Source of the DNA: Vogesella sp. LIG4
GTDB taxonomy: Bacteria; Pseudomonadota; Gammaproteobacteria; Burkholderiales; Chromobacteriaceae
Assembly: GCF_900090205.1 (NCBI RefSeq)
Contig: NZ_LT607802.1
Span: 1,782,215-1,846,214 of the forward strand
Length of the DNA: 64,000 bases
Reading direction: 5' to 3'
Made by a program: the position numbers and the translations under genes. The stretch's first letter is position 1. Each line of letters opens with the position of its first letter. Below, piece after piece: positions 1,245-64,000 of the stretch. The notes beneath the pieces were generated by a model. The model saw only the letters and a list, made by a program, of their open reading frames with translations. It searched no databases and was not told the origin of the DNA.

Positions 1245-1955
1245 ATGACGACATCCGCCTCCGCCGCCGTGGCGCACTACGCGCAGCGCTGCATCGCCAG
1301 TGTCACCGGCCTGGTGCCGGTGACTTCCTGCGCCTTCTACCAGGTGGACGCCCAGCTGCGGCCGCGCCACTACCTGCTGCACCGCATGCCGGGGCAGGTG
1401 CATCAGCACTATCTGTCCCACTACCAGCAGTGCGACCCGCTGCACCCGGCGCGCTTCGGCCATGGCACCAGCGTGATGCCGATGGGCGAGGCAGTGGCGC
1501 AGGGCGCGCTGCGGCAATCGCGCTATGGCCGCTTCATGGCGCGCCACGGCATGGCCGACGTGGTGGAGCTGTTCGTGCGCCGCGGCGGCCGCGTGGTGGC
1601 CGGCTTCTCGCTGATTCGCGGCGAGGAGCTGGGTGCCTTCGGCAGTGCCGAGCTGGCCACGCTGCAGCAGCTGCACGGCCTGCTGGAGCTGGCGGCCAGC
1701 GGTAACCTGCCGCTGCAGTTGGCCGCAGAGGCGCAGGCCGAGGGCGTGCTGCTTACCCCGCGCGAACGCGAAGTGGCGCTGCTGCTGCGCGACGGCGCCT
1801 GCAACAAGACCATTGCCCGCTTGCTGGCGCTGGGGCTGCCGACGGTGAAAACCCATCTGCAGCACCTGTACCGCAAGTTCGGCGTGAATAACCGTACCGA
1901 GCTTGCCAGCCGGCTGTTTCTGGACCTGGCACACGGTACGGACATGGCCGGCTAA
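1245..1955 (+). CDS. LuxR-family transcriptional regulator
   Basis: A 236-residue regulator. The C-terminal 65 residues form a LuxR/FixJ helix-turn-helix (LTPREREVALLLRDGACNKT, then TVKTHLQHLYRKFGVNNRTEL), and the N-terminal 165 residues are a sensor region I do not recognise. There is no receiver-domain aspartate signature. The ATG at 1245 is chosen because GGGAG lies at 1233-1237; an open upstream extension to 1188 overlaps the aminotransferase and lacks a ribosome site. Position between the aminotransferase and the permease suggests it controls this locus in response to an amine or amino acid (inference). The uptake-like 10-mer at 1718 encodes Leu-Ala-Ala inside the gene. Confidence 0.85.
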   Translation: MTTSASAAVAHYAQRCIASVTGLVPVTSCAFYQVDAQLRPRHYLLHRMPGQVHQHYLSHYQQCDPLHPARFGHGTSVMPMGEAVAQGALRQSRYGRFMARHGMADVVELFVRRGGRVVAGFSLIRGEELGAFGSAELATLQQLHGLLELAASGNLPLQLAAEAQAEGVLLTPREREVALLLRDGACNKTIARLLALGLPTVKTHLQHLYRKFGVNNRTELASRLFLDLAHGTDMAG

Positions 1956-1971
1956 ACTAGGCCAAACAGCA

Positions 1972-2006
1972 CCGGCGCCATCATAAAAAGCCAGTACAGG
2001 CGCCGG
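1972..2006 (+). other. Leader hairpin before the permease gene
   Basis: Arms CCGGCGCC (1972-1979) and GGCGCCGG (1999-2006) pair perfectly across a 19-base loop in the 86-base gap between the LuxR gene and the permease. No T-run follows, so it is not a classical terminator. It may protect or end the upstream message. AGGAG at 2028-2032 serves the permease start. Confidence 0.4.
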
Positions 2007-2041
2007 CTACAAAGCGAGAAACAGATTAGGAGTCACCAGCA

Positions 2042-3553
2042 ATGACTATTCAACAGAAACTTGCCCGCTACCTCGACCAGGGGGTGGTGGGCTTTCCGGT
2101 GGCACTGGCCAGCTCGGTAGGCGTCGTGATGGCCAGCCCGGTAATCCTCACCGTCACCAGCGGCTTCGGCATGGCCGGCAGCACCTTCGCGCTGGCGATG
2201 GTGATCGCCTGGATCATGATGCAGGCGCAGGCCACCACCTTCTCCGAGGCGGCATCGATGCTGCCTACCTCCGGCGCGGTGTACGACTACATCTCCTGTG
2301 GCATGGGGCGCTTCTTCGCCATTACCGGCACCATCTCCGCCTATCTGCTGGTGCATGTGTTTGCCGGCACCGCCGAGACCATCCTCTCCGGCATCATGGC
2401 GCTGGTGAACTTCGAGCACCTCAACACCATGATGGAGAGCAGCGGCAGCTCCTGGCTGGTGGGCGTGGGGCTGGTGGTGCTGTTCGGCGTGCTCAACGCG
2501 CTGGGCATCACCATCTTCGGCAAGGCCGAGATCATCCTCACCTTCGTGATGTGGGCGACGCTGACCATCTTCGGCGTGATCGGCCTAATCAAGGCGCCGG
2601 CGGTGAAGCTGGACGGCTGGTTCGGCAGCCCGCTGGATCTGTCCGACCCCAGCGGCGTGCTGAGCCTGATCGGCATGGCGATGTTCATGTTCGTCGGCTT
2701 CGAGCTGGTGACGCCGCTGGCGCCTGAGCTGAAGAAGGCCGGTCGCAACATTCCGTTGGCCGCCAAGCTGGGCCTCACCGGCGTGGCCACCACCATGTTC
2801 ATCTACGGCGCCGCCATGGTGCACCAGGTGGCCAACGTGCCGATGGACCCGAAAAACCTCGCCGGCCCGCACCTGCTGGATACCCCGATGGCGATTCCGG
2901 CCTTCGCCGGCCAGGTAATGGGCCCGTTCGGCAAGATCTGGCTGGGCATCGGCCTGCTGTTCGCCGGCGCCGCCACCATCAACACCCTGATCGCCGCGCT
3001 GCCGCGCATCCTGTACGGCATGGCGCTGGATGGCGCGCTGCCCAAGGTGTTCGCCTACCTGCATCCGCGCTTCAAGACGCCGCTGTTCGGCATCCTGGTG
3101 GCGGTGGTGGTGCCCTGTGCCCACGCCTGGTACATCCACGGCGACCTCGACCGCATCATGCCGCTGGTACTGGCTGCGGTGTGTGCCTGGGGCGTGGCCT
3201 ACCTGCTGGTGAACATCTCGGTGGCGCTGCTGCGCATCCGCCGCCCGGAATTCCCGCGTGCCTACCGCTCGCCGTGGTTCCCGCTGCCGCAGATCATCTC
3301 CAGCGTCGGCATCCTCATCGCCATCTGGTTCATCACCCCGCCGGGCATGAACAGCCGCGACATCTACGTGCCGTTCGGCGTGATGCTGGGCCTCACCGCG
3401 GTGTATGCGCTGGTGTGGACGGTGTTCGTGCAGAAGGTGCACCCGTTCCGCCCGGTGGCGATCGAGGCGATCCTGGAAGAAGAGTTCGGCAAGGCCGCCG
3501 GCCATGAGTCGCTGATCGACGAGGAACTGAAGCGTGCTGCATCGCTTGGTTGA
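2042..3553 (+). CDS. APC-family amino acid/amine permease
   Basis: A 503-residue inner-membrane transporter of the amino acid-polyamine-organocation superfamily with about 12 hydrophobic segments. The conserved APC features are a glycine-rich first helix (VVGFPVALASSVGVVMASP) and the central FVGFELVTPLAPELKKAGRN region typical of amino-acid/GABA or ethanolamine-type permeases. AGGAG at 2028-2032 fits the ATG. The next gene overlaps its last 20 bases. The adjacent omega-aminotransferase suggests the substrate is an amine or amino acid deaminated by that enzyme (inference); the exact substrate is not visible. Confidence 0.88.
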   Translation: MTIQQKLARYLDQGVVGFPVALASSVGVVMASPVILTVTSGFGMAGSTFALAMVIAWIMMQAQATTFSEAASMLPTSGAVYDYISCGMGRFFAITGTISAYLLVHVFAGTAETILSGIMALVNFEHLNTMMESSGSSWLVGVGLVVLFGVLNALGITIFGKAEIILTFVMWATLTIFGVIGLIKAPAVKLDGWFGSPLDLSDPSGVLSLIGMAMFMFVGFELVTPLAPELKKAGRNIPLAAKLGLTGVATTMFIYGAAMVHQVANVPMDPKNLAGPHLLDTPMAIPAFAGQVMGPFGKIWLGIGLLFAGAATINTLIAALPRILYGMALDGALPKVFAYLHPRFKTPLFGILVAVVVPCAHAWYIHGDLDRIMPLVLAAVCAWGVAYLLVNISVALLRIRRPEFPRAYRSPWFPLPQIISSVGILIAIWFITPPGMNSRDIYVPFGVMLGLTAVYALVWTVFVQKVHPFRPVAIEAILEEEFGKAAGHESLIDEELKRAASLG

Positions 3554-4121
3554 CTGGCTGCGCCGCGAGCGCCCGCCGCGTGGCTACCGCCCGGGCGCCA
3601 CGCTGGCGCGGCTGCGGCTGGAGCTGGGGGCCGAGTGCGAGCCGGCCGGCAGCACCGCGCTGACCTGCCGCAGCGCCGACGGGCTGGCGTTCTCGGTGTG
3701 CGAGCGCACCGATGCGGTATTCCTGGCGCACACCGTCAGCTGCGAGTTCCGCCTGCCGCTGGCGCTGGCTGTGGATACGCTGGCGCCTGAGGTTGGCCGC
3801 ATCGTGATCCGCCACACCGGTGCGCTGCGCCGCCAGGGCATTGCCTGCCAGGTAACCGGGGCGGACGACGGCAGCCTGGCCGCCATCGCCCACCGGCTGC
3901 AGGACGATGCCGCGCTGCAGGCGGCGCTGCTGCCGCTGGATTTCCGCCGCTGCGAGCTGCGGCTGGAGGATGGCCGCTGGCAGCTGTGCATCGAGCATTT
4001 CGGCGCCAGCGAGGTGGTAAGCAACTTCCCGCCGATGCGGCGCTACATCCGGCTGATCGCGCCGCAGCGCCAGGCGCTGTTGCAGAGCCTGCGGGCCTGT
4101 CAGCAGCTGCTGGCGGCTTGA
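3534..4121 (+). CDS. Conserved hypothetical protein (DUF3156-like)
   Basis: A 195-residue soluble protein beginning at a GTG inside the permease gene (20-base overlap), which implies translational coupling. I see no signal peptide, membrane helix or catalytic motif. It is rich in Arg and Leu with a C-terminal amphipathic helix (RRYIRLIAPQRQALLQSL). From memory it resembles the DUF3156 family, whose members sit beside amino-acid permeases; I cannot confirm this. A role in the uptake locus, perhaps modulating the permease, is inference only. A 10-mer copy lies at 3792, read Val-Gly-Arg. Confidence 0.6.
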   Translation: MLHRLVDWLRRERPPRGYRPGATLARLRLELGAECEPAGSTALTCRSADGLAFSVCERTDAVFLAHTVSCEFRLPLALAVDTLAPEVGRIVIRHTGALRRQGIACQVTGADDGSLAAIAHRLQDDAALQAALLPLDFRRCELRLEDGRWQLCIEHFGASEVVSNFPPMRRYIRLIAPQRQALLQSLRACQQLLAA

Positions 4122-4206: not shown

Positions 4207-4288
4207 GTAGGGCGGGTTGGCCGCAGGCCATACCCGCGCAGAGTTGGCGGCTTGCGCGGGTATGAACCGCTGGTTCAACCCGCCCTAC
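4207..4288. repeat. 82-bp intergenic inverted-repeat element, copy 1
   Basis: Ends are perfect 13-base inverted repeats, GTAGGGCGGGTTG (4207-4219) and CAACCCGCCCTAC (4276-4288). A nested pair CATACCCGCG / CGCGGGTATG lets the whole element fold into one long hairpin. The left end carries the 10-mer GTTGGCCGCA. Two more copies follow at 4742 and 4869. It has no coding capacity and resembles REP/BIME-type or non-autonomous elements. Confidence 0.85.
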
Positions 4289-4741: not shown

Positions 4742-4824
4742 GTAGGGCGGGTTGGCCGCAGGCCATACCCGTGAGGGGTGGCTGGCTGTGCGCGGGTATG
4801 AACCGCTGGTTCAACCCGCCCTAC
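4742..4824. repeat. Intergenic inverted-repeat element, copy 2
   Basis: An 83-bp copy with the same 13-base terminal inverted repeats, the same internal CATACCCG / CGGGTATG pair and the same embedded 10-mer as copy 1. The centre has diverged (GTGAGGGGTGGCTGGCTG in place of the copy 1 centre), while the stems are kept. Confidence 0.85.
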
Positions 4825-4868: not shown

Positions 4869-4950
4869 GTAGGGCGGGTTGGCCGCAGGCCATACCCGCG
4901 CGACGTTGGCGGCTTGCGCGGGTATGAACCGTTGGTTCAACCCGCCCTAC
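4869..4950. repeat. Intergenic inverted-repeat element, copy 3
   Basis: An 82-bp copy nearly identical to copy 1, ending 12 bases before the stop codon of the MarR-family gene. Its hairpin could end or stabilise that minus-strand transcript. The three copies have conserved stems and one orientation with respect to the embedded 10-mer. Confidence 0.85.
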
Positions 4951-5573: not shown

Positions 5574-6362
5574 ATGTCGCTACACAACAAGGTCATCGTG
5601 ATTACCGGCGCCGGTACCGGCATCGGCGAAGCCTGCGCCCGGCGCTTTGCCGCCGAGGGCGCGCAGCTGGTGCTGATCGGCCGCCGCGAGGGGCCGCTGC
5701 AGCGCGTGGCGCAGGCCAGCGGTGGCCTGGTGCTGGTGGGCGATGCCGCCAGCGGCGCCGACTGGCAGCAGTTCCTGCCGCGCATCCTGCAGCAGTACGG
5801 CGCCATCGACGCGTTGGTGGCCTGCGCCGGCGGCATGGGGCTGGGCAGTGCGACCGACACCGACGATGCGGCCTGGCAGCAGGCACTTGCGGCCAACCTT
5901 GGCACCGCCTTCGCCAGCGCCCGTGCCTGCCTGCCGGCGCTGCAGCAAAGCCGTGGCAGCATCGTGCTGCTGGCGTCCATTGCCTCGCTGGCGGCCGGGC
6001 CGGCGGTGTGCGGCTACACCACCGCCAAGCATGCGCTGCTGGGGCTTACCCGCTCGCTGGCGCGCGATTACGGCCCGCACGGCGTGCGGGTGAACGCGGT
6101 GTGCCCTGGTTGGGTGCGCACGCCGATGGCGGACGAGGAGATGCAGCCGCTGATGGCGCACTACGACGAAAGCCTGGACGCCGCCTATAACCGCGTTAGC
6201 GCCGAGGTGCCGCTGCGGCGCGCGGCCGAGGCGCACGAGATTGCCGCCGTGTGCCGCTTCCTGGTGTCGGACGAGGCCAGCATCATTACCGGCGCCAGCA
6301 TCGTGGCCGACGGTGGCTCCAGCATCGTGGATGTGCCGACGCTGGCGTTCGAGCGCTTGTAG
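5574..6362 (+). CDS. Short-chain dehydrogenase/reductase
   Basis: A 262-residue NAD(P)-dependent oxidoreductase of the classical SDR family. The cofactor motif TGAGTGIG is near residue 12, ACAGG replaces the usual NNAG, and the catalytic serine and YxxxK are in CGYTTAKHALLG. The C-terminus GASIVADGGSS matches the family end. AAGGAGA at 5562-5568 supports the ATG at 5574 rather than the longer open frame from 5454. Substrate unknown. It is divergent from the HpaR-like gene and closed by a hairpin at 6373. Confidence 0.88.
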   Translation: MSLHNKVIVITGAGTGIGEACARRFAAEGAQLVLIGRREGPLQRVAQASGGLVLVGDAASGADWQQFLPRILQQYGAIDALVACAGGMGLGSATDTDDAAWQQALAANLGTAFASARACLPALQQSRGSIVLLASIASLAAGPAVCGYTTAKHALLGLTRSLARDYGPHGVRVNAVCPGWVRTPMADEEMQPLMAHYDESLDAAYNRVSAEVPLRRAAEAHEIAAVCRFLVSDEASIITGASIVADGGSSIVDVPTLAFERL

Positions 6363-6416: not shown

Positions 6417-7454
6417 TCAGCGTGCTGCCCAGGCGTTGAAGCGCTGCTCCAGGTCCTCGCCGTGCTCCACCCAGAAGTTCACGTCCAGTGCCACCGCGTT
6501 CTTCAGGTTGGCCGGCCAGGTCGGCAGGTTGGCCGCAGTCTTGGCGTCCACCTTCTGCACGGCCTTCAGATTGGTGGGGCCGTAGGCGATGCGGTTGGAG
6601 TACACCGCCTGGTTTTCCGGCTTGCCGGCGTTCTTGATGAAGGCCATGGCTTCCTTGACGTTGGGCGTACCCTTGGGCACCGCCCAGAAGTCCACGTCAT
6701 AGATGCTGCCGGTCCACACCACTTTCAGGTTCTTGCCTTCCTTCTGCACCGCGTCGATGCGGCCGTTGTAGGCCGAACTCATCACCACGTCGCCGGAGGC
6801 CAGGAATTGCGGCGGTTGGGCACCGGCTTCCCACCACTGGATGTTCGGTTTCAGCTGATCCAGCTTCTTGAAGGCGCGATCCACACCGGCCTTGGTGCCC
6901 AGCACCTTGTACACGTCGGCCGGCTTCACGCCATCGGCCAGCAGTGCGAATTCCAGCGTGTACTTGGCGCCCTTGCGCAGGCCGCGCTTGCCGGGGAATT
7001 TCTTCACGTTCCAGAAATCGGCCCAGTTCTGCGGCCCGGTTTTCAGGATGTCGGCGTTGTAGGCCATGGCGGTGGACCACACGAAGATGCCGGCGCCGCA
7101 TTCGGCCACCGCCGGTTTCAGGTAGTCGGCCTTGTTGCCCACCTGTTTCCAGTCGATCTTCTCGAACAGGCCGTCTTCACAGCCGCGCATCAGTTCCGGG
7201 CCTTCCACTTCCACCACGTCCCAGCTCACCTGGCGGGCATCGACCATGGCCTTGATCTTGGCCATTTCGCCGTTGTAGTCGCCGGCGGTCACCTTGTTGC
7301 CGCTGGCTTTCTCGAAGGTCTGGTAGTAGGCGGCGATCTGCGCCTCCTTGTTGGCACCGCCAAAGGACACCACGGTGATGTCCTTGGCCATGGCCGCCGG
7401 GGCGCATGCCGCGATGATGCCCAGCGCGGCAAGGTGGGGGATGAACTTGTCCAT
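6417..7454 (-). CDS. Periplasmic polyamine-type (PotD/PotF-like) ABC binding protein
   Basis: A 345-residue secreted solute-binding protein: signal peptide MDKFIPHLAALGIIAACAPAAMA, then KDITVVSFGGANKEAQ typical of the spermidine/putrescine and related SBP_bac_8 family. ABPs of this type feed a PotABC-like transporter, but no matching ATPase or permeases are near, so it is an orphan component or serves a transporter elsewhere. A strong palindrome at 7659-7682 lies about 205 bases upstream of its start, between a TATACA box and the gene. The 10-mer at 6528 reads Ala-Ala-Asn in this gene. Confidence 0.88.
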   Translation of the reverse strand: MDKFIPHLAALGIIAACAPAAMAKDITVVSFGGANKEAQIAAYYQTFEKASGNKVTAGDYNGEMAKIKAMVDARQVSWDVVEVEGPELMRGCEDGLFEKIDWKQVGNKADYLKPAVAECGAGIFVWSTAMAYNADILKTGPQNWADFWNVKKFPGKRGLRKGAKYTLEFALLADGVKPADVYKVLGTKAGVDRAFKKLDQLKPNIQWWEAGAQPPQFLASGDVVMSSAYNGRIDAVQKEGKNLKVVWTGSIYDVDFWAVPKGTPNVKEAMAFIKNAGKPENQAVYSNRIAYGPTNLKAVQKVDAKTAANLPTWPANLKNAVALDVNFWVEHGEDLEQRFNAWAAR

Positions 7455-8097: not shown

Positions 8098-8236
8098 GGT
8101 GAATCTCTCCGGTGTGGTGGCAGCCGACGTTGGCCGCATGGCAAGAACAGCCGCCATTGTGGCGGCCATCAGGCTGCCTGACCGGGGGCGCCGGCGCCGA
8201 TATGCGGACCTATCGCGCCAGCGTGCTGCGCGCCGC

Positions 8237-9025
8237 TCAGGGCAGCGCGGCGGCCGATTCCGGCAGCGTGGCGCCGCCATCCACCACGATGGTCTGGCCG
8301 GTAATGTAGCCGGCGGCGTCCGAGGCCAGGAACAGCATGGCGGCGGCGATGTCCGCCGGCTCGCCCAGCCGCCCCAGAGGCACGCCGGCGGCTATGCCGG
8401 CGTTCAGCGCCGCATCGCCCAGGTTGGCCATGGCCGGGGTGCGTATCATGCCCGGCTCCACGCCGTTGACGGTGATGCCGTGCGGCGCCAGTTCCAGCGC
8501 GGCGGCACGGATGAAGCCGTTCACCCCGGCCTTGGAGGCGGCGTAGTGCGCCAGGCCCGGGTAGGCCACGCGCGGGCCGGTAACCGAGGAGGTGGCCAGG
8601 ATGCGGCCGCCGCGCACGCGCAGCAGCGGCAGCGCCGCCTGGGTGAGCCAGAACAGTGCCGACAGGTTCACCGCCAGCGTGCGCTGCAGCAGCGCCGGGG
8701 CGATGTCCGCCAGCGGTGTCAGCGGAAAGTAGGCGGCGTTGTGCAGCAGCACGTCCAGCCGGCCATGCGTGCGGCCAACGTTGTGCAGCAGTTCGCCGAT
8801 GGCGTCGTGGCTGGCGAGGTCGATGCCGTAGGCGTGTACGTCACCGCCGGCAGCGTTCAGCTCGGCAGCGGTGGCGGCGGCCTTGTCGGCCTGCAGATCG
8901 GCGATGATCACGCGCGCGCCGTGGGCGGCAAAGGCGTGGCTGATGCCACGGCCTATGCCCTGGGCGCCGCCGGTGACCAGCACCACGCGGCCGGCAAAAT
9001 CCGGGGTGTAGCAGGGGTTCAGCAT
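8237..9025 (-). CDS. Short-chain dehydrogenase/reductase
   Basis: A 262-residue classical SDR: VTGGAQGIGRG cofactor loop, LHNAAYFPLTP, catalytic serine in ATSSVTG, and active site YAASKAGVNG. The C-terminus ITGQTIVVDGGATLP fits SDRs of the FabG type. GGAG lies before the ATG at 9025; the upstream frame belongs to the next gene's region. With the MoaF-like gene (50-base gap) and perhaps tauD it forms a minus-strand unit. Substrate unknown; a role on an aldehyde or alcohol made from an amine or sulfonate is inference. Confidence 0.87.
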   Translation of the reverse strand: MLNPCYTPDFAGRVVLVTGGAQGIGRGISHAFAAHGARVIIADLQADKAAATAAELNAAGGDVHAYGIDLASHDAIGELLHNVGRTHGRLDVLLHNAAYFPLTPLADIAPALLQRTLAVNLSALFWLTQAALPLLRVRGGRILATSSVTGPRVAYPGLAHYAASKAGVNGFIRAAALELAPHGITVNGVEPGMIRTPAMANLGDAALNAGIAAGVPLGRLGEPADIAAAMLFLASDAAGYITGQTIVVDGGATLPESAAALP

Positions 9026-9075: not shown

Positions 9076-9891
9076 TCAGTCGAGCGCGTGGCGGGTGGTG
9101 TTCAGCACCTGGGCGCTGGCGCCCACCGCGAAGTTGGACAGCACGCCGAAGTCGCCGCCCTGGTAGCCGACGATCTTGCCGTCGGTCTTGCCGCGCGCCA
9201 GGTCGATCAGCACCACGCCCAGGGTGGGGATGATCTTCTCGCGCCACACGAACAGGTACAGCTGCTCGGCCAGCTTGATGTAGTGGCAGCGGTCCACGTC
9301 GGCCAGGCCCTGTTCCACGCCCTGCAGGCATTGCCAGGCGTAGAAGTTGTCGTTGAGGTAGATGTGTTCGTAGCACTCGGTGCGGCTGTAGCGGTACTGG
9401 TTGCGCATGCCGATCAGCTCGCGGGTGGCGTGGTGCAGCTCCTCGCCGGGGTTGGCCGCATGGTCCACGGTGCCGTGGCTGATGCGGGTGTTCACGGCGG
9501 TCAGCTCCAGGCCCTGCGCCACGCGGCGGAACGGGTCCAGCCGGGTGGCGGCTTCGTCCGGCAGCTGGCCGTCCACGCGGGTGTACAGGCCGCGCGCCAG
9601 GTCCAGCACCAGGCTCAGCGAGGAGGCGGCCGGCACCGGCGGCAGGCAGTCGACAAAGTACAGGCTGTTGCGCAGCGAGGTGACGCGGCAGGGGGCGTTG
9701 ATGTCACTTCCGGCGTCGTGCAGCGTCAGGCTGCCGTCGGCAGCGAAGCTCAGCGTGCAGGCGGCGCCGGCGGCGTCCAGCAGCTGGAAGCTGCGCCCGG
9801 CAAGCTCGCTGCAGGCGGGCAGGGTGTTGTTGTCGGGGGCGAAACCGTCGGCCAGTGCGCCGACCTGGATGAATACCGCTTGCTGTTCCAT
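9076..9891 (-). CDS. MoaF-like protein
   Basis: A 271-residue soluble protein with two similar halves, as in MoaF (N- and C-terminal lipocalin-like barrels). Family-like segments recalled are ISHGTVDHAAN, RNQYRYSRTECYEHIYLND and CLQGVEQGLADVD. MoaF was first described in the Klebsiella moaEF operon in the monoamine/arylsulfatase regulon; its biochemical role is not settled. The start at 9891 is chosen because GGAG precedes it by 6 bases; another ATG is 12 bases upstream. Neighbours are tauD and an SDR, which fits amine or sulfonate metabolism. Confidence 0.72.
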   Translation of the reverse strand: MEQQAVFIQVGALADGFAPDNNTLPACSELAGRSFQLLDAAGAACTLSFAADGSLTLHDAGSDINAPCRVTSLRNSLYFVDCLPPVPAASSLSLVLDLARGLYTRVDGQLPDEAATRLDPFRRVAQGLELTAVNTRISHGTVDHAANPGEELHHATRELIGMRNQYRYSRTECYEHIYLNDNFYAWQCLQGVEQGLADVDRCHYIKLAEQLYLFVWREKIIPTLGVVLIDLARGKTDGKIVGYQGGDFGVLSNFAVGASAQVLNTTRHALD

Positions 9892-9986: not shown

Positions 9987-10820
9987 CTAGAACGGGCGGT
10001 CGCCCAGGATGGTGGCGCGGTGCATGATGCGGTGCGCCGGGCGGTAGTCGTCCACCGCGTAGTGCTGGGTGCTGCGGTTGTCCCAGAACGCCACGTCGCC
10101 CGGCTGCCAGCGCCAGCGCACGCTGAACTCCGGGCGGGCGTAGTGGGCGAACAGGAAGCTCAGCAGCGCTTGGCTTTCCGCCGGTTCCAGCTCGTTGATG
10201 CGGGTGGTGAAGCCGTCGCTGACGAACAGCGCCTTCTCGCCGCTTACCGGGTGGGTGCGCACCACCGGGTGGCTGACCGGCGGGGTGGTGCGGCGGGTTT
10301 CCTCGTAGCGCGCCAGCGCCTCCGGCGTGTGGCCGAAGCGCTCCAGCGGGAACGACTTGGTGAAGTCATGCGTGGCGCTAAGCCCGTCCAGCAGTTGCTG
10401 GATGCGCGGCGACAGCGCACGCCAGGCGGCGGTGCCGCTGGCCCACAGCGTGTCGCCGCCGTAGGGTGGCAGCTGGCGTGCGGCCAACACCGAGCCCAGC
10501 GGCGGGGTGGCGATGAAGGTGACGTCGGTGTGCCAGATGGCGTTGTCGCGCAGGTCGTTCTGCGCGGTGTCCAGCACCATGATCTGCGGGATGTCGGCGA
10601 TCTTCGGGTACAGCGGGTGCACGTGCAGGTCGCCGAAAGCGGCGGCGAAGTCGCGCTGCTGCAGCGGGCTGATGTCCTGCTGGCGGAAGAACAGCACCTG
10701 GTGATCCAGCAGCGCCCGGGCGATGGCGGCGCGCTGCGCTTCATCCTGCGGGCGGGACAGGTCTATGCCTTCCACCACGGCGCCAATGGCCGGGGACAGG
10801 CGGGTAAAGCGAAGGCTCAT
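9987..10820 (-). CDS. tauD: Taurine dioxygenase
   Basis: A 277-residue Fe(II)/2-oxoglutarate oxygenase that hydroxylates taurine, releasing sulfite and aminoacetaldehyde in the cytoplasm. The iron ligands are visible: H and D in WHTDVTF and the distal H in HRIMHRATI. Length matches E. coli TauD (283). AAGGAA precedes the ATG at 10820; the longer frame to 10886 lacks a site. It is the last gene of tauABCD. Related enzymes act on other sulfonates or alpha-keto acid partners, but the adjacent tauABC makes taurine most likely. Confidence 0.9.
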
Positions 10821-11709: not shown

Positions 11710-12488
11710 GCGGCCTCCTGTTGCTGGGCGCGGGTCAGGCTGGCAAGCAGCGTCTCGCGCAGGGTGATGAACTCGGGGTCGGACTTGATGGCGCGCACGC
11801 TCTCGCCGGCCAGGAAGCGCTGGCTGAAGGTTGGCCGCAGGTACTGCACGATGCGGCCCGGGCCCGGCGACATCAGCACCAGGCTGCTGGCCAGGAACAG
11901 CGCTTCTTCGATGTCATGGGTGATCAGGAAGATGCCGCGTCGCGACTGCCGCCACACTTGCAGCAGCAACTGCTGCATCTGCTCGCGGGTGAAGGCGTCC
12001 AGCGCGCCGAACGGCTCGTCCATCAGCAGCAGGCGCGATCGGCTGGCCAGCGCGCGGGCTATGCCCACCCGCTGGCGCATGCCGCCGGACAGCTGCCACA
12101 CCCGCTTGCCGGCGGCGGCGCTCAGCCCCACCTGTTGCAGGGTGTCGGCCACGATGGCGGCGCGCTCGGCGGCCGGCACGCCCTGCAGCTTCAGGCCGAA
12201 GGCCACGTTGCCGGCCACGTCCAGCCACGGCAGCAGGCCGTCCTGCTGGAACACCACCGCGCGCTCGGCGCCGGGGCCGGTTATCGGCTGGCCGTCGAAG
12301 CGCACGCTGCCCTGGCTGGGCGGCGTGAAGCCGGCCAGCACGTTCAGCAACGTGCTCTTGCCGCAGCCGGACGGCCCCAGCGCCACCAGCAGCTCGTCCT
12401 CCGACAGCCCCAGCGACACCTGCTGCAGCGCGGGCTGCGCCTGGCCGGGGTAGTGCACGCCGAGCTGGTCTACTTGCAGCAGGCTCAT
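11706..12488 (-). CDS. tauB: Taurine ABC transporter ATP-binding protein
   Basis: A 260-residue ABC ATPase with Walker A GPSGCGKST, signature LSGGMRQRVGIARAL, Walker [13 protein letters not shown] and the switch histidine in LITHDIEEAL. It powers import through TauC. It begins one base after the tauA stop and overlaps tauC by four bases. The 10-mer at 11830 falls in the gene, reading Leu-Arg-Pro-Thr. Confidence 0.9.
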   Translation of the reverse strand: MSLLQVDQLGVHYPGQAQPALQQVSLGLSEDELLVALGPSGCGKSTLLNVLAGFTPPSQGSVRFDGQPITGPGAERAVVFQQDGLLPWLDVAGNVAFGLKLQGVPAAERAAIVADTLQQVGLSAAAGKRVWQLSGGMRQRVGIARALASRSRLLLMDEPFGALDAFTREQMQQLLLQVWRQSRRGIFLITHDIEEALFLASSLVLMSPGPGRIVQYLRPTFSQRFLAGESVRAIKSDPEFITLRETLLASLTRAQQQEAA

Positions 12489-12489: not shown

Positions 12490-13473
12490 TCAGTTCAGTG
12501 CCGCCTGCACGAAACGGTTGGTCACATAGGGGCTGTAGTCGGCCTGCAGGCTGTCCACCTTGCCCTGCGACTTCAGAAACGCCGAGGTATCGCTCACCGC
12601 CTTCACGAACGGCTTCTGCAGCAGTGCGCTCTGCTCCTGCAGCGATGGGTAGCGGTTGCCCGGCAGCAGGGCGGTGACTTCCTCCGGCTTGCTGCCGGTG
12701 AGACGGGCGATCTTGTCCACGTTGGCCGCATCGGCGGCAAAGCCTTTCGGGTTCTGGTTGTAGCGCTCGAACACCTTGCCGGTGACCTTCACGAACTGCT
12801 TGAGGAAGTCCGGGTTCTTCTGCGCAAAGTCCTGGCGCACGATCCACAGGTCGTAGGTGGGCGCGCCCCACTTGCTGACCTCGGCCGAGCTGGTCAGCAC
12901 CTTGCCGCTGGCCTTCACCTTGCCCAGCGCCGGCTCCCACACATAGGCGCCGTCGATGTCGCCACGCTGCCAGGCGGCGGCAATCTCGCTGGGGCGCAGG
13001 TTGAGAATGGTCACCTTGCCGGCATCCACCTGCCAGTGCTTGAGCGCCGCCAGCAGGCTGTAGTGGGTGGTGGACACATAGGGCACGGCGATCTTCTTGC
13101 CCGCCAGGTCGGCCGGCTTGCTGATGCCGCTGCCATTGCGCACCACCAGCGCCTCGGACTCGCCGATGATGCCGGTAACCAGGAAGGTCTGGATCGGCAG
13201 GCCGCGGCTGGCGGCGGCGGCCAGCGGGCTGGAGCCGATATTGCCGATCGGCACGTCGCCGGAGGCCACCGCGGCAATCACTTCGGCGCCGCTTTCGAAC
13301 TTGCGCCAGTTGATCTTCTTGCCGGTGGCTTTTTCGTAATCGCCGTCGGCCTGCGCCACCTTGGACGGGTCTACACCGGTCTGGAAGGCGATGGTCACGC
13401 CGTCGTCGGCGTGGGCGGTGCCGGCGGCCAGCGCCAGAGAAACGAACAGGGAAAGCAGTTGCGGTCGGGTCAT
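12490..13473 (-). CDS. tauA: Taurine-binding periplasmic protein
   Basis: A 327-residue periplasmic receptor: signal peptide MTRPQLLSLFVSLALAAGTAHA, then DDGVTIAFQTGVDPSKVAQA as in TauA/SsuA-type proteins. Length agrees with E. coli TauA (320). The ATG at 13473 has GAGGA nine bases upstream; the ATG at 13482 would sit directly on that ribosome site. It is the first gene of tauABCD. In enterobacteria the operon is induced by sulfate starvation through Cbl/CysB; no such site was identified here. Confidence 0.9.
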   Translation of the reverse strand: MTRPQLLSLFVSLALAAGTAHADDGVTIAFQTGVDPSKVAQADGDYEKATGKKINWRKFESGAEVIAAVASGDVPIGNIGSSPLAAAASRGLPIQTFLVTGIIGESEALVVRNGSGISKPADLAGKKIAVPYVSTTHYSLLAALKHWQVDAGKVTILNLRPSEIAAAWQRGDIDGAYVWEPALGKVKASGKVLTSSAEVSKWGAPTYDLWIVRQDFAQKNPDFLKQFVKVTGKVFERYNQNPKGFAADAANVDKIARLTGSKPEEVTALLPGNRYPSLQEQSALLQKPFVKAVSDTSAFLKSQGKVDSLQADYSPYVTNRFVQAALN

Positions 13474-13701
13474 GATGCTCATCCTCAAAGGGCATTTGTG
13501 ATGAGCCATTTAAAAAGCAAACCCGGTACGGCGTGAAATAAGCAATTGGCAAAAACAAATCGGCGGCGGCGGATTTCGATAGCAGAAAAACTGCTGATGC
13601 CGTGATGCCTGCGGCGCCAGGGTTGGCCGCATGAACGCAGCGGCCGCCGCACGCGACACGGGTGCTGGCGGCCTGCTGGTGGGGGGGCGCCGCAGCTGTG
13701 G

Positions 13702-16896: not shown

Positions 16897-17000
16897 GTCG
16901 GCAGCCCGGCGTTGATAAGCTCAGCAGATTTGCTTGTTTCACGCCGCAAGGTTGGCCGCATACAGTGGGCGATCTCCATTCTCTGATGGGTGTCTGCATT

Positions 17001-26906: not shown

Positions 26907-26952
26907 GTGCAGGCCAGCTATTGATAGCCTGCCGTCAGCTTGCGGCCAACGT

Positions 26953-28326
<1,374 letters not shown>

Positions 28327-41854: not shown

Positions 41855-41882
41855 CGTGCGGCCAACCCTGGCTGTAATAGAA

Positions 41883-51113: not shown

Positions 51114-51761
51114 ATGTTTGGCATAACCGACCTGACCACCTACATCCTCGGCACCATCTTCATTGTGCTGCTGCCGGGCCCCAACTCGATGTATGTGCTG
51201 TCCGTGGCCGCCCAGCGCGGGCACCGGGCCGGTTTTGTCGGAGCCGCCGGCGTGTTCGTCGGCGACTTCATCCTGATGACGCTTGCCGCTACTGGCGCGG
51301 CTGGCTTGCTGAAGACCAACCCGGCGCTGTTTGCCGTGGTGAAGTACCTCGGCGGTGGTTACCTGGCCTGGATCGGCATCAACATGCTGCGCGCTGCCGT
51401 GCGCGCCCTGCGTAATGCAGGGCAGCCGGCACAGGCGAGCGATGCGAAGACGGTGAATGCGGCCAACCCTTTCACCCGCGCCCTGGTCATCAGCCTGATG
51501 AACCCCAAGGCCATCCTGTTCTTCGTGTCCTTCTTCGTGCAGTTTGTCGATCCGGCCTATGCCTACCCGGGCGTGACCTTCGCCATCCTCGGCGCCATCC
51601 TGCAGTGCTTCAGCGCGCTGTATCTGACCACCATCATCATCGCCGGCTTCCGTCTGGCCGAAGCCTTCCGTCGCCGCCGCAAGCTGGCGGCGTCGCTGTC
51701 CGGCACGGTGGGGGCGATGTTTGTCGGATTTGGCGCCAAGTTGGCCGCAGCAAGCCTGTGA
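51114..51761 (+). CDS. LysE/RhtB-family amino acid exporter
   Basis: A 215-residue inner-membrane protein with about six helices. LPGPNSMYVLSVAAQRGHRAG and YLGGGYLAWIGINMLRAA and LMNPKAILFFVSFFVQFVDP are LysE/RhtB family marks; members export amino acids such as lysine, arginine, threonine or homoserine. It sits in the carA-carB gap, 15 bases after carA and 32 before carB, so it is co-transcribed. Arginine, made from carbamoyl phosphate, is a plausible cargo (inference). Two 10-mer copies occur inside (51458, 51740). Confidence 0.88.
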   Translation: MFGITDLTTYILGTIFIVLLPGPNSMYVLSVAAQRGHRAGFVGAAGVFVGDFILMTLAATGAAGLLKTNPALFAVVKYLGGGYLAWIGINMLRAAVRALRNAGQPAQASDAKTVNAANPFTRALVISLMNPKAILFFVSFFVQFVDPAYAYPGVTFAILGAILQCFSALYLTTIIIAGFRLAEAFRRRRKLAASLSGTVGAMFVGFGAKLAAASL

Positions 51762-51793: not shown

Positions 51794-54700
51794 ATGCCGA
51801 AACGTACTGATATCAAGAGCATTCTCATCATTGGCGCCGGCCCGATCGTGATCGGCCAGGCGTGCGAATTCGACTACTCCGGCGCCCAGGCCTGCAAGGC
51901 ACTGCGCGAAGAGGGTTACAAGGTGGTGCTGGTGAACTCCAACCCGGCCACCATCATGACCGACCCGAACATGGCCGACGTCACCTACATCGAGCCGATT
52001 ACCTGGCAGGTGGTGGAAAAGATCATCGCCAAGGAGCGTCCGGACGCGATCCTGCCGACCATGGGCGGCCAGACCGCGCTGAACTGCGCCCTGGACCTGG
52101 CACGCAACGGCGTGCTGGAGAAGTACAAGGTCGAGCTGATCGGCGCCACCGAAGACGCCATCGACAAGGCGGAGGACCGCGGCCGCTTCAAGGAAGCCAT
52201 GGCCAAGATCGGCCTGTCCTGCCCGCTGTCCTTCGTATGCCACACCATGGAAGAATCGCTGGAAGCGCAGAGCAAGGTCGGCTTCCCGACCCTGATCCGC
52301 CCGTCCTTCACCATGGGCGGTTCCGGCGGCGGCATCGCCTACAACAAGGAAGAGTTCCTGGCCATCTGCGAGCGCGGTTTCGAAGCCTCGCCGACCCACG
52401 AACTGCTGATCGAACAATCCGTACTCGGCTGGAAAGAGTACGAGATGGAAGTGGTGCGCGACCGCAACGACAACTGCATCATCATCTGCTCGATCGAAAA
52501 CTTCGACCCGATGGGTGTGCATACCGGCGACTCCATCACCGTGGCCCCGGCGCAGACGCTGACCGACAAGGAATACCAGATCATGCGCAATGCCTCGCTG
52601 GCAGTGCTGCGTGAAATCGGTGTGGATACCGGCGGCTCCAACGTGCAGTTCGCGGTGAACCCGGACACCGGTGACATGATCGTCATCGAGATGAACCCGC
52701 GCGTATCGCGTTCCTCGGCACTGGCTTCCAAGGCCACCGGCTTCCCGATCGCCAAGGTCGCCGCCAAGCTGGCGGTGGGCTACACCCTGGACGAACTGCG
52801 CAACGAGATCACCGGCGGCGCCACCCCGGCCTCGTTCGAGCCGTCCATCGACTACGTGGTAACCAAGATCCCGCGTTTCGCCTTCGAGAAATTCCCGCAG
52901 GCCGACGACCGCCTGACCACCCAGATGAAGTCGGTGGGCGAAGTGATGGCCATGGGCCGCACGCTGCAGGAATCGATGCAGAAAGCACTGCGTGGCCTGG
53001 AAACCGGCCTGTCCGGCTTCAACCCGGTAACCAGCAACGAAGAATCCATCCGTCACGAGCTGGGCGCGCCCGGCCCGGAACGCATCCTGTACGTGGCCGA
53101 CGCCTTCCGCAGCGGCATGAGCCGTGACGACATCTTCGCCATCAGCAAGATCGACCCGTGGTTCCTGGCGCAGATCGAGGACCTGGTAGGCGAAGAGCAG
53201 GCACTGGCTGGCCGCAAGCTGGAAAGCCTGTCCTACGACGAGCTGCGTCGCCTGAAGCGCAAGGGCTTCTCCGACCGCCGTCTGGGCGAGCTGCTGGGCA
53301 CCGACCAGGCTGCCGTTCGCGCCCACCGCTGGAGCCTGAAGCTGCACCCGGTATACAAGCGCGTGGACACCTGCGCCGCCGAGTTCGCCACCAACACCGC
53401 CTACATGTACTCCACCTACGAGGAAGAGTGCGAGGCTGCACCAACCGACCGCAAGAAGGTAATGGTGCTGGGTGGCGGCCCGAACCGTATCGGCCAGGGT
53501 ATCGAATTCGACTACTGCTGCGTGCATGCTGCGCTGTCGCTGCGTGAATCCGGTTTCGAGACCATCATGGTCAACTGCAACCCGGAAACCGTGTCCACCG
53601 ACTACGACACCTCCGACCGCCTGTACTTCGAGCCGCTGACGCTGGAAGACGTGCTGGAAATCTGCCGCGTGGAAAAACCGTTCGGCGTGATCGTGCAGTA
53701 CGGCGGCCAGACCCCGCTGAAACTGGCGCGCGCACTGGAAGCCAACGGCGTGCCCATCATTGGCACCAGCCCGGACATGATCGATGCCGCGGAAGACCGC
53801 GAGCGCTTCCAGCAGCTGCTGAACGACCTGGGCCTGAAGCAGCCGCCGAACCGCACCGCGCGCAACCCGGTGGATGCGATGCGCCTGGCCGAAGAAATCG
53901 GCTACCCGCTGGTGGTGCGTCCGTCCTACGTACTGGGCGGCCGCGCGATGGAAATCGTGCACGAGCCGGCCGACCTGGAGCGCTACATGCGCGAGGCAGT
54001 GAAGGTATCCAACGACAGCCCGGTGCTGCTGGATCGCTTCCTGAACGACGCCATCGAAGTGGACGTTGACTGCATCTCCGACGGCACCGACGTGGTGATC
54101 GGCGGCATCATGCAGCACATCGAACAGGCCGGCGTGCACTCCGGTGACTCCGCTTGCTCGCTGCCGCCGTACAGCCTGTTCCCGGCTGTGCAGGACGAGA
54201 TCCGCCGCCAGACCGTGGCCATGGCCCGCGCGCTGAACGTGGTGGGCCTGATGAACGTGCAGTTCGCCATCCAGCGCGACACCATCTACGTGCTGGAAGT
54301 GAACCCGCGTGCCTCGCGTACCGTGCCGTTCGTGTCCAAGGTAACCTCCGCGCCGCTGGCCAAGATCGCCGCCCGCGCCATGGCCGGCATCAGCCTCAAG
54401 GAGCAGGGTTTCACCAAGGAAGTGGTACCGCCGTACTACGCGGTGAAGGAAGCGGTATTCCCGTTCATCAAGTTCCCGGGCGTGGACACCATCCTCGGCC
54501 CCGAGATGAAGTCCACCGGTGAAGTGATGGGCGTTGGCCGCACCTTCGCCGAAGCCTTCGTCAAGAGCCAGCTGGCTGCCGGCGACCGTCTGCCGCGCAC
54601 CGGCAAGGTGTTCCTGTCGCTGCGTCAGAGTGACAAGGAAGGTGGCGTGGAAGTGGCGCGCGAACTGCAGAAGCTGGGCTTCGGCGTCTGCGCCACCCGC

Positions 54701-55007: not shown

Positions 55008-55043
55008 ATTTGCCTGCGGCCAACCTTTGAACCGCAGGCAAAT
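55008..55043 (+). terminator. carB terminator hairpin containing a 10-mer
   Basis: ATTTGCCTGCGG (55008-55019) pairs with CCGCAGGCAAAT (55032-55043). The 10-mer complement starts within the left arm at 55015. There is no T-run, and the stem overlaps a promoter for greA, so its role as terminator is moderate. Confidence 0.6.
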
Positions 55044-56150: not shown

Positions 56151-56174
56151 CTCTATCTGAGGTTGGCCGCAAGC

Positions 56175-59237: not shown

Positions 59238-59287
59238 TTCAGGTGCCGCATTCCTACGCGGCACCGGTTCTACGCGGTGCGGCCAAC

Positions 59288-60127
59288 ATGCAGCCATTTG
59301 TTTGCGGGCGATTCACGCTCGACCTGACCCGTCCCCTGGTGATGGGAATCCTCAACGTTACTCCCGACTCCTTCTCCGACGGCGGCCGCTTCGACCGGCT
59401 GGACGCGGCGCTGGCACATGCCGAGCAGCTGCTGGCCGACGGGGCGGACATCCTCGACATCGGCGGTGAATCCACCCGCCCGGGCGCGCCCTTCGTCAGC
59501 CCGCAGGAGGAAGAGCAGCGCGTGCTGCCGGTGCTGCAGAAGCTGGCAGGCCTGGGCGTGCCGCTGTCGCTGGATACCCGCCGCAGCAGCGTGATGCGCG
59601 CAGCGCTGGATGCTGGTGCGGTGGACCTGATCAACGATGTGTCGGCGCTGGAAGACGACGGCGCGCTGCCGCTGGTGGCTGCGGCCAACGTTGGCATCTG
59701 CCTGATGCACAAGCAGGGCAACCCGGACAATATGCAGCAGCGGCCGCAGTACCGCGACGTGGTGGAAGAGGTGGGCGACTACCTGGCGCGCCGCGTGGCG
59801 TTGTGCCGCGAGCAGGGCGTGGCGATGGAACGCCTGCTGGCCGACCCCGGCTTCGGTTTTGGCAAGACGCTGGAGCACAATCTGGCGCTGCTGCGCGAGC
59901 TACCGCGGCTGGAAGCCATGGCCGGCGTGCCGCTGCTGGTGGGCATGTCGCGCAAGTCCATGCTGGGCGCGGTGACCGGCGAGCAGCAGCCGGACCAGCG
60001 CCTGGGCGCCAGTGTGGCGGTGGCACTGTTGGCCGCACAGCGCGGCGCCAGGATCATCCGCGTGCATGACGTGAAAGCCACCCGCCAGGCGCTGCAGATG
60101 TGGCAGGCGCTGGAAGCATCCAACTAA
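59288..60127 (+). CDS. folP: Dihydropteroate synthase
   Basis: A 279-residue TIM-barrel enzyme that joins p-aminobenzoate to dihydropterin pyrophosphate in folate synthesis; target of sulfonamides. GILNVTPDSFSDGG, DIGGESTRPGA and ILDIGG marks are clear. ATG at 59288 is chosen because E. coli FolP begins a few residues before this motif; the frame to 59231 runs through the ftsH terminator tail. A 10-mer complement ends one base before the ATG and occupies the ribosome-site position. Other copies at 59680 (Ala-Ala-Asn) and 60028. Confidence 0.95.
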   Translation: MQPFVCGRFTLDLTRPLVMGILNVTPDSFSDGGRFDRLDAALAHAEQLLADGADILDIGGESTRPGAPFVSPQEEEQRVLPVLQKLAGLGVPLSLDTRRSSVMRAALDAGAVDLINDVSALEDDGALPLVAAANVGICLMHKQGNPDNMQQRPQYRDVVEEVGDYLARRVALCREQGVAMERLLADPGFGFGKTLEHNLALLRELPRLEAMAGVPLLVGMSRKSMLGAVTGEQQPDQRLGASVAVALLAAQRGARIIRVHDVKATRQALQMWQALEASN

Positions 60128-60199: not shown

Positions 60200-61531
60200 A
60201 TGGGCCGCAAATATTTTGGTACCGACGGCGTACGAGGCGAAGTCGGCAAGTTTCCGATCACCCCGGATTTCGTGCTGCGCCTGGGTTACGCCGCCGGCAA
60301 GGTGCTGGTGGACCACGAGCGCCAGGAACACCCGACGGTGATCATCGGCAAGGACACCCGCATCTCCGGCTACATGCTGGAGGCCGCGCTGCAGGCCGGC
60401 TTCACCGCCGCCGGCGTCAACGTGCTGCTTACCGGCCCGCTGCCGACGCCGGGCATCGCCTACCTGACCCGCGCGCTGCGGCTGTCGGCCGGGGTGATGA
60501 TCTCCGCCTCGCACAATCCTTACCAGGATAACGGCATCAAGTTCTTCGCCGAAGGCGGCAAGAAGCTGGACGATGCGCTGGAGCTGCAGATCGAGGCGAT
60601 GCTGGATTCGCCGATGGAAACCAGCCCGTCGCGCGAGCTGGGCCGTGCCCGCCGCATCGACGGCGCCGCCGAGCGCTACATCGAATTCTGCAAGAGCACC
60701 TTCCCCAACGAGCTGGACCTCAAGGGCCTGAAGCTGGTGGTGGACTGCGCGCATGGCGCCACCTACCACATCGCGCCCAAGGTATTCCACGAGCTGGGGG
60801 CCGAGCTGATCACCATCGGTGCCGAGCCCAACGGCTACAACATCAACGACGGCGTGGGCGCCACCCATCCGGAGGCGGTGGCTGCCGCGGTGCTGGCGCA
60901 TGGCGCCGACTTCGGCATTTCGCTGGACGGCGATGGCGACCGGCTGATGATGGCCGACCGCCACGGCCGGCTGTACGACGGCGACCAGCTGATCTACGTG
61001 GTGGCCAAGGCGCGCGCCGCGCGCGGCCAGCTGCACGGCGGCGTGGTGGGCACGGTGATGACCAATATGGCGATGGAACTGGCGCTGCAGCAGCAGGGCA
61101 TCGCCTTTGGCCGCGCCAAGGTGGGCGACCGCTACGTGCTGGAGATGCTGCATGCCAACGGCTGGCAGGTGGGCGGGGAAGCTTCCGGCCACATCCTGTG
61201 CCTGGACAAGCACAGCACCGGCGACGGCATCATTTCCTGCCTGCAGGTGTTGGCCGCATGCCAGGAGCTGGGCAAGGACCTGGCTGCCATCTGCAGCGAC
61301 TGGCAGCCGTTCCCGCAAAAGATGATCAATGTGCGCCTCGATGGCCAGGACTGGCAGACTGCCAGCGCCGAGCGGCACGAGGCGGCCAAGGCGGCGCTGG
61401 CCGGCCGTGGCCGCGTGGTGCTGCGTCCGTCCGGTACCGAACCGGTGGTACGGGTAATGGTGGAGGCTGACGATGTCGCGCTGGCCGTGCACTGGGCCGA
61501 GGACATCGCTGCCGCCATCCGCGGCAGTTGA
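60200..61531 (+). CDS. glmM: Phosphoglucosamine mutase
   Basis: A 443-residue enzyme that makes glucosamine-1-phosphate for cell-wall precursors. Phosphoserine loop [17 protein letters not shown], metal loop [11 protein letters not shown] and C-terminal [18 protein letters not shown] at 60190-60193 fits ATG 60200. Gene order rlmE-ftsH-folP-glmM is conserved from E. coli. The 10-mer at 61249 reads Leu-Ala-Ala. Confidence 0.97.
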
Positions 61532-62384: not shown

Positions 62385-62405
62385 TGACCGGCCATGCGGC
62401 CAACT

Positions 62406-62778: not shown

Positions 62779-62933
62779 TGTTATGTCCTCGTTGCTGCGG
62801 TGAGTCTTGAACCGGGCATTCTACCTGCTGCACGGCCGGGCGATAAGCTGAATGTTGTCTTTACAGCTCAATGGCTTATAACAAGAAAAGTCGCGGTTCA
62901 TCCACGCAGCTGTCGAAATAAAGGGGACCAATC

Positions 62934-63710
62934 ATGGACATTACCCATCTGCCCAGCAAAGAACATATTGTCGTCAATCACGTTGCCGTTTCCGCGCCAC
63001 TGCAGTGGCTGAAGCTGGGGTGGCAGGATCTGCGCCGCGCACCGGCCGATTCCATGTTCTACGGCGCCGTTTTCGTACTGATGGGCTATCTGCTCAATAT
63101 GTATTTCAGCTATGCACCCGAGTACATGATCACCCTGGCCGCGCTGTTCCTGCTGGCCGGGCCGTTCATGGCCATCGGCCTGTACGACATCTCGCGCCAG
63201 CTGGAAGCCTTCAACGGCGGGCGGGTGCGCCTGGCGCACAGCATGGCGGCCTGGCGCAGCAATATGCCCGGCTTCTCGCTGTACGCGGTATTGCTGGCGG
63301 TGATGGTGTTCGGCTGGTTCCGCATTTCGCTGCTGATGTTTGCGCTGTTCTACGAGGGTAGTGTGCCGACGCTGGATTCGCTGGTGGCCAATGCCTTCAC
63401 CCAGGAGAACATCGGCTTCCTGGTTGCCTGGTTCGGTACCGGCTTCTTCTTTGCCGTTGCGGTGTTCTCGCTGAGCGTATGCGCCATTCCGATGCTGCTG
63501 GACAAGGAAGTGGACACCATCACCGCCATGGTGATGAGCGTGCAGGCGGTGTACCACAACATGCTGACGATGCTGTTCTGGGCGGCTATCATCGTGGCTC
63601 TGACCGCGATCGGGTTTGCCACCCAGTTTGTCGGGCTGCTGCTGATCACCCCGCTGATCGGCCTGTCCAGCTGGCATGCCTATCGCGCCCTGATCTCCTA
63701 CGAGCACTAA
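62934..63710 (+). CDS. DUF2189 family membrane protein
   Basis: A 258-residue inner-membrane protein with about six hydrophobic segments, in three pairs. The first half holds ADSMFYGAVFVLMGYLLNMY and LAGPFMAIGLYDISRQLE, typical of DUF2189. AAGGGGA precedes the ATG at 62934. Function unknown. Confidence 0.85.
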   Translation: MDITHLPSKEHIVVNHVAVSAPLQWLKLGWQDLRRAPADSMFYGAVFVLMGYLLNMYFSYAPEYMITLAALFLLAGPFMAIGLYDISRQLEAFNGGRVRLAHSMAAWRSNMPGFSLYAVLLAVMVFGWFRISLLMFALFYEGSVPTLDSLVANAFTQENIGFLVAWFGTGFFFAVAVFSLSVCAIPMLLDKEVDTITAMVMSVQAVYHNMLTMLFWAAIIVALTAIGFATQFVGLLLITPLIGLSSWHAYRALISYEH

Positions 63711-63723
63711 GCCTGCCTGCCAC

Positions 63724-64000
63724 ATGACCGAACCCGCCATCGTGTTTCTGGACCGGGACAGCCTGCCTGTCCCGGTTCCCGTTTGTAAGCTGCCGCATAC
63801 CTACCGCGAATTCCCGGCCACCAGCCGCGAGCAGATCGTGGCGCACTGCGCCGACGCCGACATCGTCATCACCAACAAGGTGCCGTTCGATGCGGCAACG
63901 TTGGCCGCATTGCCGCGGCTGAAGATGCTGGCCATCGCCGCCACCGGCTACAACCACATCGACCTGGATAGCTGCCGCCGCCAGGGCATCGCGGTGGCCA
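63724..64000 (+). CDS. D-2-hydroxyacid dehydrogenase, 3' end outside window
   Basis: The first 92 residues from ATG 63724 (MTEPAIVFLDRDSLPV, DADIVITNKVPFDAATLAAL, LKMLAIAATGYNHIDL) match the N-terminal domain of glycerate/D-2-hydroxyacid dehydrogenases (HprA-like). The NAD domain lies beyond the window. The 10-mer at 63900 reads Leu-Ala-Ala. Confidence 0.86.
   Translation, partial: MTEPAIVFLDRDSLPVPVPVCKLPHTYREFPATSREQIVAHCADADIVITNKVPFDAATLAALPRLKMLAIAATGYNHIDLDSCRRQGIAVA

Follow-up and report, generated by a model that had tools for sequence, protein, structure and literature searches.

To our knowledge, the self-tagging of DNA for uptake has been established in the Neisseriaceae and the Pasteurellaceae only. 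The 10-base word GTTGGCCGCA, which recurs throughout a stretch of 64,000 nucleotides of the genome of Vogesella sp. LIG4 (G000:C1:1782215-1846214, hereafter the window; the genome, G000, is a single contig of 4,147,242 bases), very probably represents the DNA uptake sequence (DUS) of this Chromobacteriaceae genus and one of several genus-level dialects of GTTGGCCG, with the pilin ComP as its proposed reader. The uptake signal sequence (USS) of the Pasteurellaceae is an abundant self-uptake word that is found in genes and as inverted pairs, and GTTGGCCGCA resembles it in these respects, the word itself being a different one. The two systems would differ in their receptors, as the one predicted for USS is ComN/PpdA, a pilin of the FimT family, and not ComP (excerpts of PMC12616744). 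As far as the excerpted text of Frye et al. (2013, PMC3630211) goes, the DUS of the Neisseriaceae comes in eight dialects with a conserved CTG core at +6..+8 and an A at +10, and reaches about 940-5,900 copies per genome. The words described here, named after their endings as CA (GTTGGCCGCA), AA (GTTGGCCGAA) and AG (GTTGGCCGAG), share with that system the format of a 10-mer (12-mer extended), the distribution of dialects by genus or species group, the presence of two dialects in one genome and paired copies in dyad symmetry (excerpts of PMC3630211), as well as the encoding of a ComP-type pilin in the genome. Unlike DUS, they hold CTG in neither strand. Thus, by far the best account is that GTTGGCCGCA acts like a DUS and yet stands outside the described set of dialects, as the preliminary description of this DNA had already supposed.

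The same source reports, in the part covered by the excerpts, no obvious DUS for five genomes in the Chromobacteriaceae neighbourhood as of 2013. No description of the present words was found in the literature searched, and Table S1D of PMC3630211, with over-represented 10-mers of the five DUS-less genomes, may hold one of them. Nothing was found that pairs 'uptake sequence' with Vogesella or 'DNA uptake sequence' with Aquitalea and, among the matches listed for the text of GTTGGCCGCA, none concerned uptake words by its title. Among those listed for the dialect words together with uptake terms, a single paper (PMC3868556) has one of the words, in one place.

In the window, GTTGGCCGCA is the most frequent 10-mer, with 51 exact copies (29 plus, 22 minus) against 0.62 expected; none of 100 shuffles reached 51, and the runner-up, an overlapping 10-mer, has 28 copies. 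The preliminary description had given 48 copies (29 plus, 19 minus) over 1718..63909, with less than one expected by chance; its plus count, its expectation and its end point agree with ours, while three minus copies had been missed and the first copy lies at 781, the last being at 63900-63909. Genome-wide, 2,895 copies are present (1,458 forward and 1,437 reverse), corresponding to 0.70 copies per kb, so that the word makes up 0.70 percent of the genome; the reversed word has 8 copies. A sample of 464 kb, made up of the window and 20 further 20-kb stretches (together 11% of the genome), contains 339 exact copies versus 3.5 expected under an order-3 Markov model, and here GTTGGCCGCA is the top 10-mer by z-score, an abundance of the kind that characterizes DUS. 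Two of the checks that had been proposed, namely a genome-wide count far above chance and, in the sample, the first rank among over-represented 10-mers, thus gave the predicted outcome. The copies of GTTGGCCGCA in the window are listed below by position, strand and, where noted, setting.

781..790, minus, copy
1718..1727, plus, copy
3792..3801, plus, copy
4216..4225, plus, intergenic copy
4751..4760, plus, intergenic copy
4878..4887, plus, intergenic copy
5888..5897, minus, copy
6528..6537, plus, copy
8129..8138, plus, intergenic copy
8770..8779, minus, copy
9451..9460, plus, copy
10479..10488, minus, copy
11830..11839, plus, copy
12721..12730, plus, copy
13622..13631, plus, intergenic copy
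15714..15723, minus, copy
16951..16960, plus, intergenic copy
17710..17719, minus, copy
20309..20318, minus, copy
21177..21186, plus, copy
22501..22510, plus, copy
24226..24235, plus, copy
25066..25075, minus, copy
26584..26593, plus, copy
26941..26950, minus, intergenic copy
28177..28186, minus, copy
29149..29158, minus, copy
31506..31515, plus, copy
32327..32336, plus, copy
33092..33101, minus, copy
36737..36746, minus, copy within pilB
39768..39777, plus, copy within pilD
41857..41866, minus, intergenic copy
44065..44074, plus, copy within queG
44703..44712, plus, copy, first half of a perfect 20-bp inverted pair
44713..44722, minus, copy, second half of the 44703 pair
44869..44878, plus, copy, first half of a second perfect pair
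44879..44888, minus, copy, second half of the 44869 pair
47296..47305, minus, copy
49356..49365, plus, copy
51458..51467, minus, copy
51740..51749, plus, copy
54533..54542, plus, copy within carB
55015..55024, minus, copy directly past carB
56162..56171, plus, intergenic copy
59278..59287, minus, intergenic copy
59680..59689, minus, copy
60028..60037, plus, copy
61249..61258, plus, copy within glmM
62395..62404, minus, intergenic copy
63900..63909, plus, copy

The 30 one-mismatch words of GTTGGCCGCA sum to 99 occurrences in the 464 kb sample versus 106.5 expected and, in the absence of any excess, the word is therefore all-or-none. This is unlike kingDUS, the DUS of Kingella oralis, where one-mismatch copies add 21 percent (excerpts of PMC3630211), and is unexplained if mutation decays GTTGGCCGCA copies. 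Single intergenic copies are preferentially preceded by A (0.69), A (0.60) and G (0.71) and have G at +2 (0.73), and genic copies show the same flank preferences more weakly. The extended form of the word is AA[G/C]-GTTGGCCGCA-NG, with conservation dropping within about 3-4 bases of the 10-mer.

The distribution of the word among relatives was determined in a family set of 61 genomes from ten genera, 13 of them belonging to the genus of G000 (g1) and 48 to nine others. GTTGGCCGCA reaches 1,871-2,442 copies in all 12 of the other g1 genomes, with at most 14 of the reversed control, and only 8-58 copies in the 48 genomes of the other genera. There, related wordings take its place. In particular, GTTGGCCGAA is abundant in eight of the 48 (2,168 copies in G014, 1,851 in G021, 1,368 in G017, 1,245 in G016, 1,104 in G013, 893 in G022, 579 in G023 and 183 in G029) and does not exceed 78 copies in all other family genomes, g1 included, and both g4 genomes are rich in GTTGGCCGAG (1,940 and 1,590), all others having at most 165. 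In addition to its GTTGGCCGAA copies, G017 carries a second word, GTTTGCCGAA, with 616 copies (66 at most elsewhere). The CA, AA and AG endings thus behave as dialects in the sense established for DUS, being sorted by genus, with a second word in G017. All in all, 23 of the 61 family genomes, in seven of the ten genera, are word-bearing and 38 are without these words; within genus g6, only G017 among ten genomes is word-bearing. In an order-wide sample of 399 genomes, the four words summed as GTTGGCCGMR stay at or below 223 copies in each of the 386 that lie outside the family. The ComP of G024 (g4) was identical in a protein search to a protein named Crenobacter cavernae, and pilins resembling those of g6 were named Aquitalea; both genera belong to the Chromobacteriaceae, and the family is therefore taken to be this one. 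The assignment to a lineage with its own uptake word consequently holds in essence as regards the lineage, while the notion of a single-lineage word gives way to GTTGGCCG dialects spread over seven of ten genera.

Some minor count differences were also observed. G006 (g1) has about 620 copies of GTTGGCCGCG, a figure obtained by subtracting the CA, AA and AG counts from its 2,551 GTTGGCCGMR copies, next to 1,871 of GTTGGCCGCA, and GTTGGCCGCG is possibly a dialect in the making. AG (92, 85) and AA (62, 45) counts are slightly raised in G027 and G036 (g8), perhaps as remnants of a lost dialect. Outside the family, GTTGGCCGMR rises up to about fivefold above the reversed control (82 versus 16 in G123, 139 versus 31 in G288), these and others being far below DUS levels. 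A TTTACCCTGATCGA-like repeat of genus g9 was considered as another word and rejected, as it encodes the prepilin motif GFTLIE within clusters of pilins.

The turnover of individual sites was followed by aligning the pilB-zapD region from 21 genomes. Many word sites are common within g1 sub-clades and different between them, others occur in a single genome, and the two word-less genomes in the alignment contain no word copies. In two columns g1 has the CA ending where g4 has AG, and near column 3184 AA is found in g2 and g5 and AG in one g4 genome, the columns being slightly offset. There are off-dialect copies as well, namely AA in G007 and G024, AG in G013 and CA in G016. This pattern fits active gain and loss and not an inherited fossil. 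A fuller reading, in which dialects switch in place (same position, new ending) and drive suppresses one-mismatch copies to chance, appears to us slightly better than evenly balanced.

As for the mechanism, word-bearing DNA would be bound during natural transformation by a minor pilin on type IV pili. The most likely candidate for this pilin is the ComP orthologue, whose gene neighbours aroB and the gene of a FimT-like pilin. The DNA would then be imported by retraction of the pilus built by PilBCD, followed by the action of ComEA and ComEC, and chromosomal recombination would favour word-bearing alleles, such that copies may accumulate and near-miss copies may be replaced. The window itself encodes the following components.

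31692..32003, plus, comEA-like gene, 103 amino acids, periplasmic DNA-binding competence protein (TIGR00426 at 72.2 bits, cut-off 53.1; TIGR01259 below cut-off)
36450..38183, plus, pilB, type IV pilus assembly ATPase (TIGR02538 at 847 bits, cut-off 675.65)
38201..39421, plus, pilC/pilG, type IV pilus platform protein (PilC/GspF models, all below equivalog cut-offs)
39433..40275, plus, pilD, prepilin peptidase (PF06750 and PF01478 both exceed their cut-offs; NCBIfam gives no match at 1e-5)

ComEC of G000 is encoded elsewhere on the contig, at G000:C1:1900508-1902295. ComEA exceeds its cut-off in 59 of the 61 family genomes, whether word-bearing or not, and ComEC does so in 57 of them; among word-bearing genomes, G001 and G008 have no good ComEC and G021 has ComEC fragments only. 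As both proteins are found in word-bearing and word-less genomes alike, they permit the uptake reading and do not prove it.

The only sequence matches of the G000 ComP orthologue in the PDB are Neisseria ComP (5HZ7, 2M3K, 2NBA), with which it shares sequence homology and a W-P-x-L-P motif past the helix. This homology stands above that of other pilins, as two PilE-like control pilins of G000 match no PDB ComP. The protein also has a pilin fold for which Neisseria ComP is the best match. An orthologue was picked by us in each of the 23 word-bearing genomes, the one of G021 being weak. The profile PF16732 gives 23.8 bits for ComP of G000 (cut-off 27.3) and 32.4 for that of G003, and PilE-like pilins score higher. 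In G000, ComP is the weakest of three hits to this profile; the two that score above it were discarded as ComP candidates because they are PilE-like and without a PDB ComP match. Profile A1 also holds PilE-like pilins, and the hits that it gives in all 61 genomes are not orthologue calls.

Neisseria ComP has four Cys forming two disulfides that hold the DD region, which, together with the beta1-beta2 loop, forms the principal contact with DNA (excerpts of Berry et al. 2016, PMC4906244). The orthologues described here differ from it, and this weighs against ComP as the reader: all 29 that were measured have one C-terminal Cys pair, with the two Cys 9-11 residues apart and 2-4 residues after, and none has the four Cys and two disulfides of a DD region, so that the second disulfide and the DNA-contacting DD loop are missing. 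According to the alignments, the Cys that opens the Neisseria pattern is absent as well; ComP of G000 and G017 has a third Cys beyond residue 40, in the helix. In a loop placed by the model between the first two sheet strands, g1 ComPs share R-N-T-D-[NDP]-[GD]-Y, and 9 of 10 AA and AG ComPs have [KVIA]-N-x-D in the same loop. A W-[LVI]-[GS] insertion was considered as a dialect mark, being found in 8 of 10 AA/AG ComPs and absent from g1, and was rejected as it is also present in word-less g6. As to the electropositive stripe that marks the ComP receptor, the net charge of ComP in word-bearing genomes ranges from -4 to +6.

The missing DD region leaves room for a different reader of the same uptake word, either the FimT-like pilin that shares a two-gene cassette with ComP or one of the PilE-like pilins, with another role for ComP. 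The FimT-like gene overlaps comP in G000 and adjoins it in the 12 other g1 genomes; in addition, Legionella FimT binds DNA, and ComN, of the FimT family, is the predicted USS receptor (excerpts of PMC12616744). However, the excerpts of the same source describe Legionella FimT as non-sequence-specific, and FimT lies directly beside ComP in g1 only, being about 1.4-2.3 kb off in four loci of other genera; in the remaining ones either no FimT match occurs in the stretch fetched or ComP itself is unmatched there. Moreover, among three G000 pilins compared with the PDB, which did not include the FimT-like one, ComP alone matches a proven word receptor. We therefore regard another pilin as a possible but unlikely reader, and ComP as the probable one.

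In a tree of 31 ComPs, in which the row of G021 was cut short of the C-terminal tail, the 13 g1 ComPs form one supported group (100/99), the deep forks are unresolved, and the AA label requires three changes. Because the g1 group equals the genus, it offers no independent proof of receptor-word co-evolution. ComP (L037:10003-10422) evolves fast: within the genus its identity to the G000 protein is 37-55 percent, as compared to about 74-87 percent for the nearby aroB. Such words, occurring in a family neighbouring the Neisseriaceae in four related wordings and with absences between and within sister genera, make up a natural series in which to study how wording shifts jointly in a receptor and at thousands of sites in the genome. 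The candidate receptor, moreover, does not have the domain credited with reading the word.

The orientation of the copies bears on whether GTTGGCCGCA could instead be a signal for chromosome segregation, the nucleoid or recombination, an alternative that the preliminary description had raised and that the genome-wide spread and high copy number of the word would suit. KOPS and Chi are abundant short words that are strongly polar by strand, and matS and SlmA sites are palindromic and clustered. GTTGGCCGCA is unlike either type. Its strands are balanced genome-wide (1,458:1,437, p 0.71), as they are for DUS. Of the 21 sampled stretches, 18 have a clear GC skew (three low-skew stretches with 39 copies were left out), and in these 18 a slight leading-strand excess of 166 versus 134 is not significant (p 0.07). 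A strong replichore polarity of the KOPS/Chi kind was thus not found, either in these stretches or in the genome-wide counts. Genus-specific wording and avoidance of divergent spacers would also not be expected from such a signal, which makes this alternative very improbable. The strong orientation bias that had been named as grounds for abandoning an uptake word is therefore not apparent, and together with the genome-wide counts this supports the original uptake interpretation.

The placement of the copies was analyzed with genes called by a simple gene finder, for which GC3 > GC1 > GC2 was required in training. The window holds 35 genic and 16 intergenic copies, so that the two settings reported before (about 32 and 17) are confirmed with a revised count, and the 464 kb sample, to which the following figures refer, holds 204 genic and 133 intergenic copies with 2 on an edge. 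The density is 0.53/kb in genes versus 1.72/kb between genes, where it amounts to 3.40/kb in convergent, 2.00/kb in codirectional and 0.39/kb in divergent spacers; GTTGGCCGCA prefers convergent gene ends and shuns divergent spacers. The mean gap between copies is 1,263 bp, in line with the spacing of about 1.3 kb first noted, and gaps of more than 60 bp are more even than random (coefficient of variation 0.74). Density follows GC content (Spearman 0.44, 92 bins of 5 kb), from 0.36/kb in the ten lowest-GC bins to 0.86/kb in the top quarter. Inverted pairs, which had also been claimed, are frequent: 24 of 25 neighbouring pairs less than 60 bp apart are inverted, 14 of the 25 abut perfectly (7 per polarity), and the window contains two perfect back-to-back pairs, 44703/44713 and 44869/44879.

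In each of the 25 close pairs the first member lies between genes, as might be expected of a mobile repeat family or a terminator hairpin resembling repetitive extragenic palindromes (REP) or miniature inverted-repeat transposable elements (MITE), and HIP1, an abundant palindromic word, is a precedent for a word kept by a methyltransferase. These explanations are nevertheless highly unlikely. Most copies (204/339) are genic and use all six frames, mostly reading Ala-Ala-Asn (82/204) or Leu-Ala-Ala (64/204); the fading of conservation so close to the 10-mer argues against a larger repeat unit, and a T run follows few of the close pairs, as judged by eye. As for HIP1, GTTGGCCGCA differs from its own reverse complement and is not a palindrome.

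An artefact of codon usage or composition in a GC-rich genome, which the 146 of 204 genic copies (72 percent) in two protein-friendly frames might suggest, can be dismissed in view of the Markov expectation of 3.5 against 339, the 8 genome-wide copies of the reversed word, the higher intergenic density and the mere 8-58 copies in 48 other family genomes.

Two further observations concern the sampled parts of G000. Ala-Ala-Asn is 2-3 times commoner in the sampled proteins than two of its permutations (AAN 115, NAA 40, ANA 54), and GTTGGCCGCA seems to shape the proteome. Finally, two of the five word-free gaps of more than 4.5 kb (L048:12176-19642 and L039:6597-12280) coincide with minor-pilin gene clusters.

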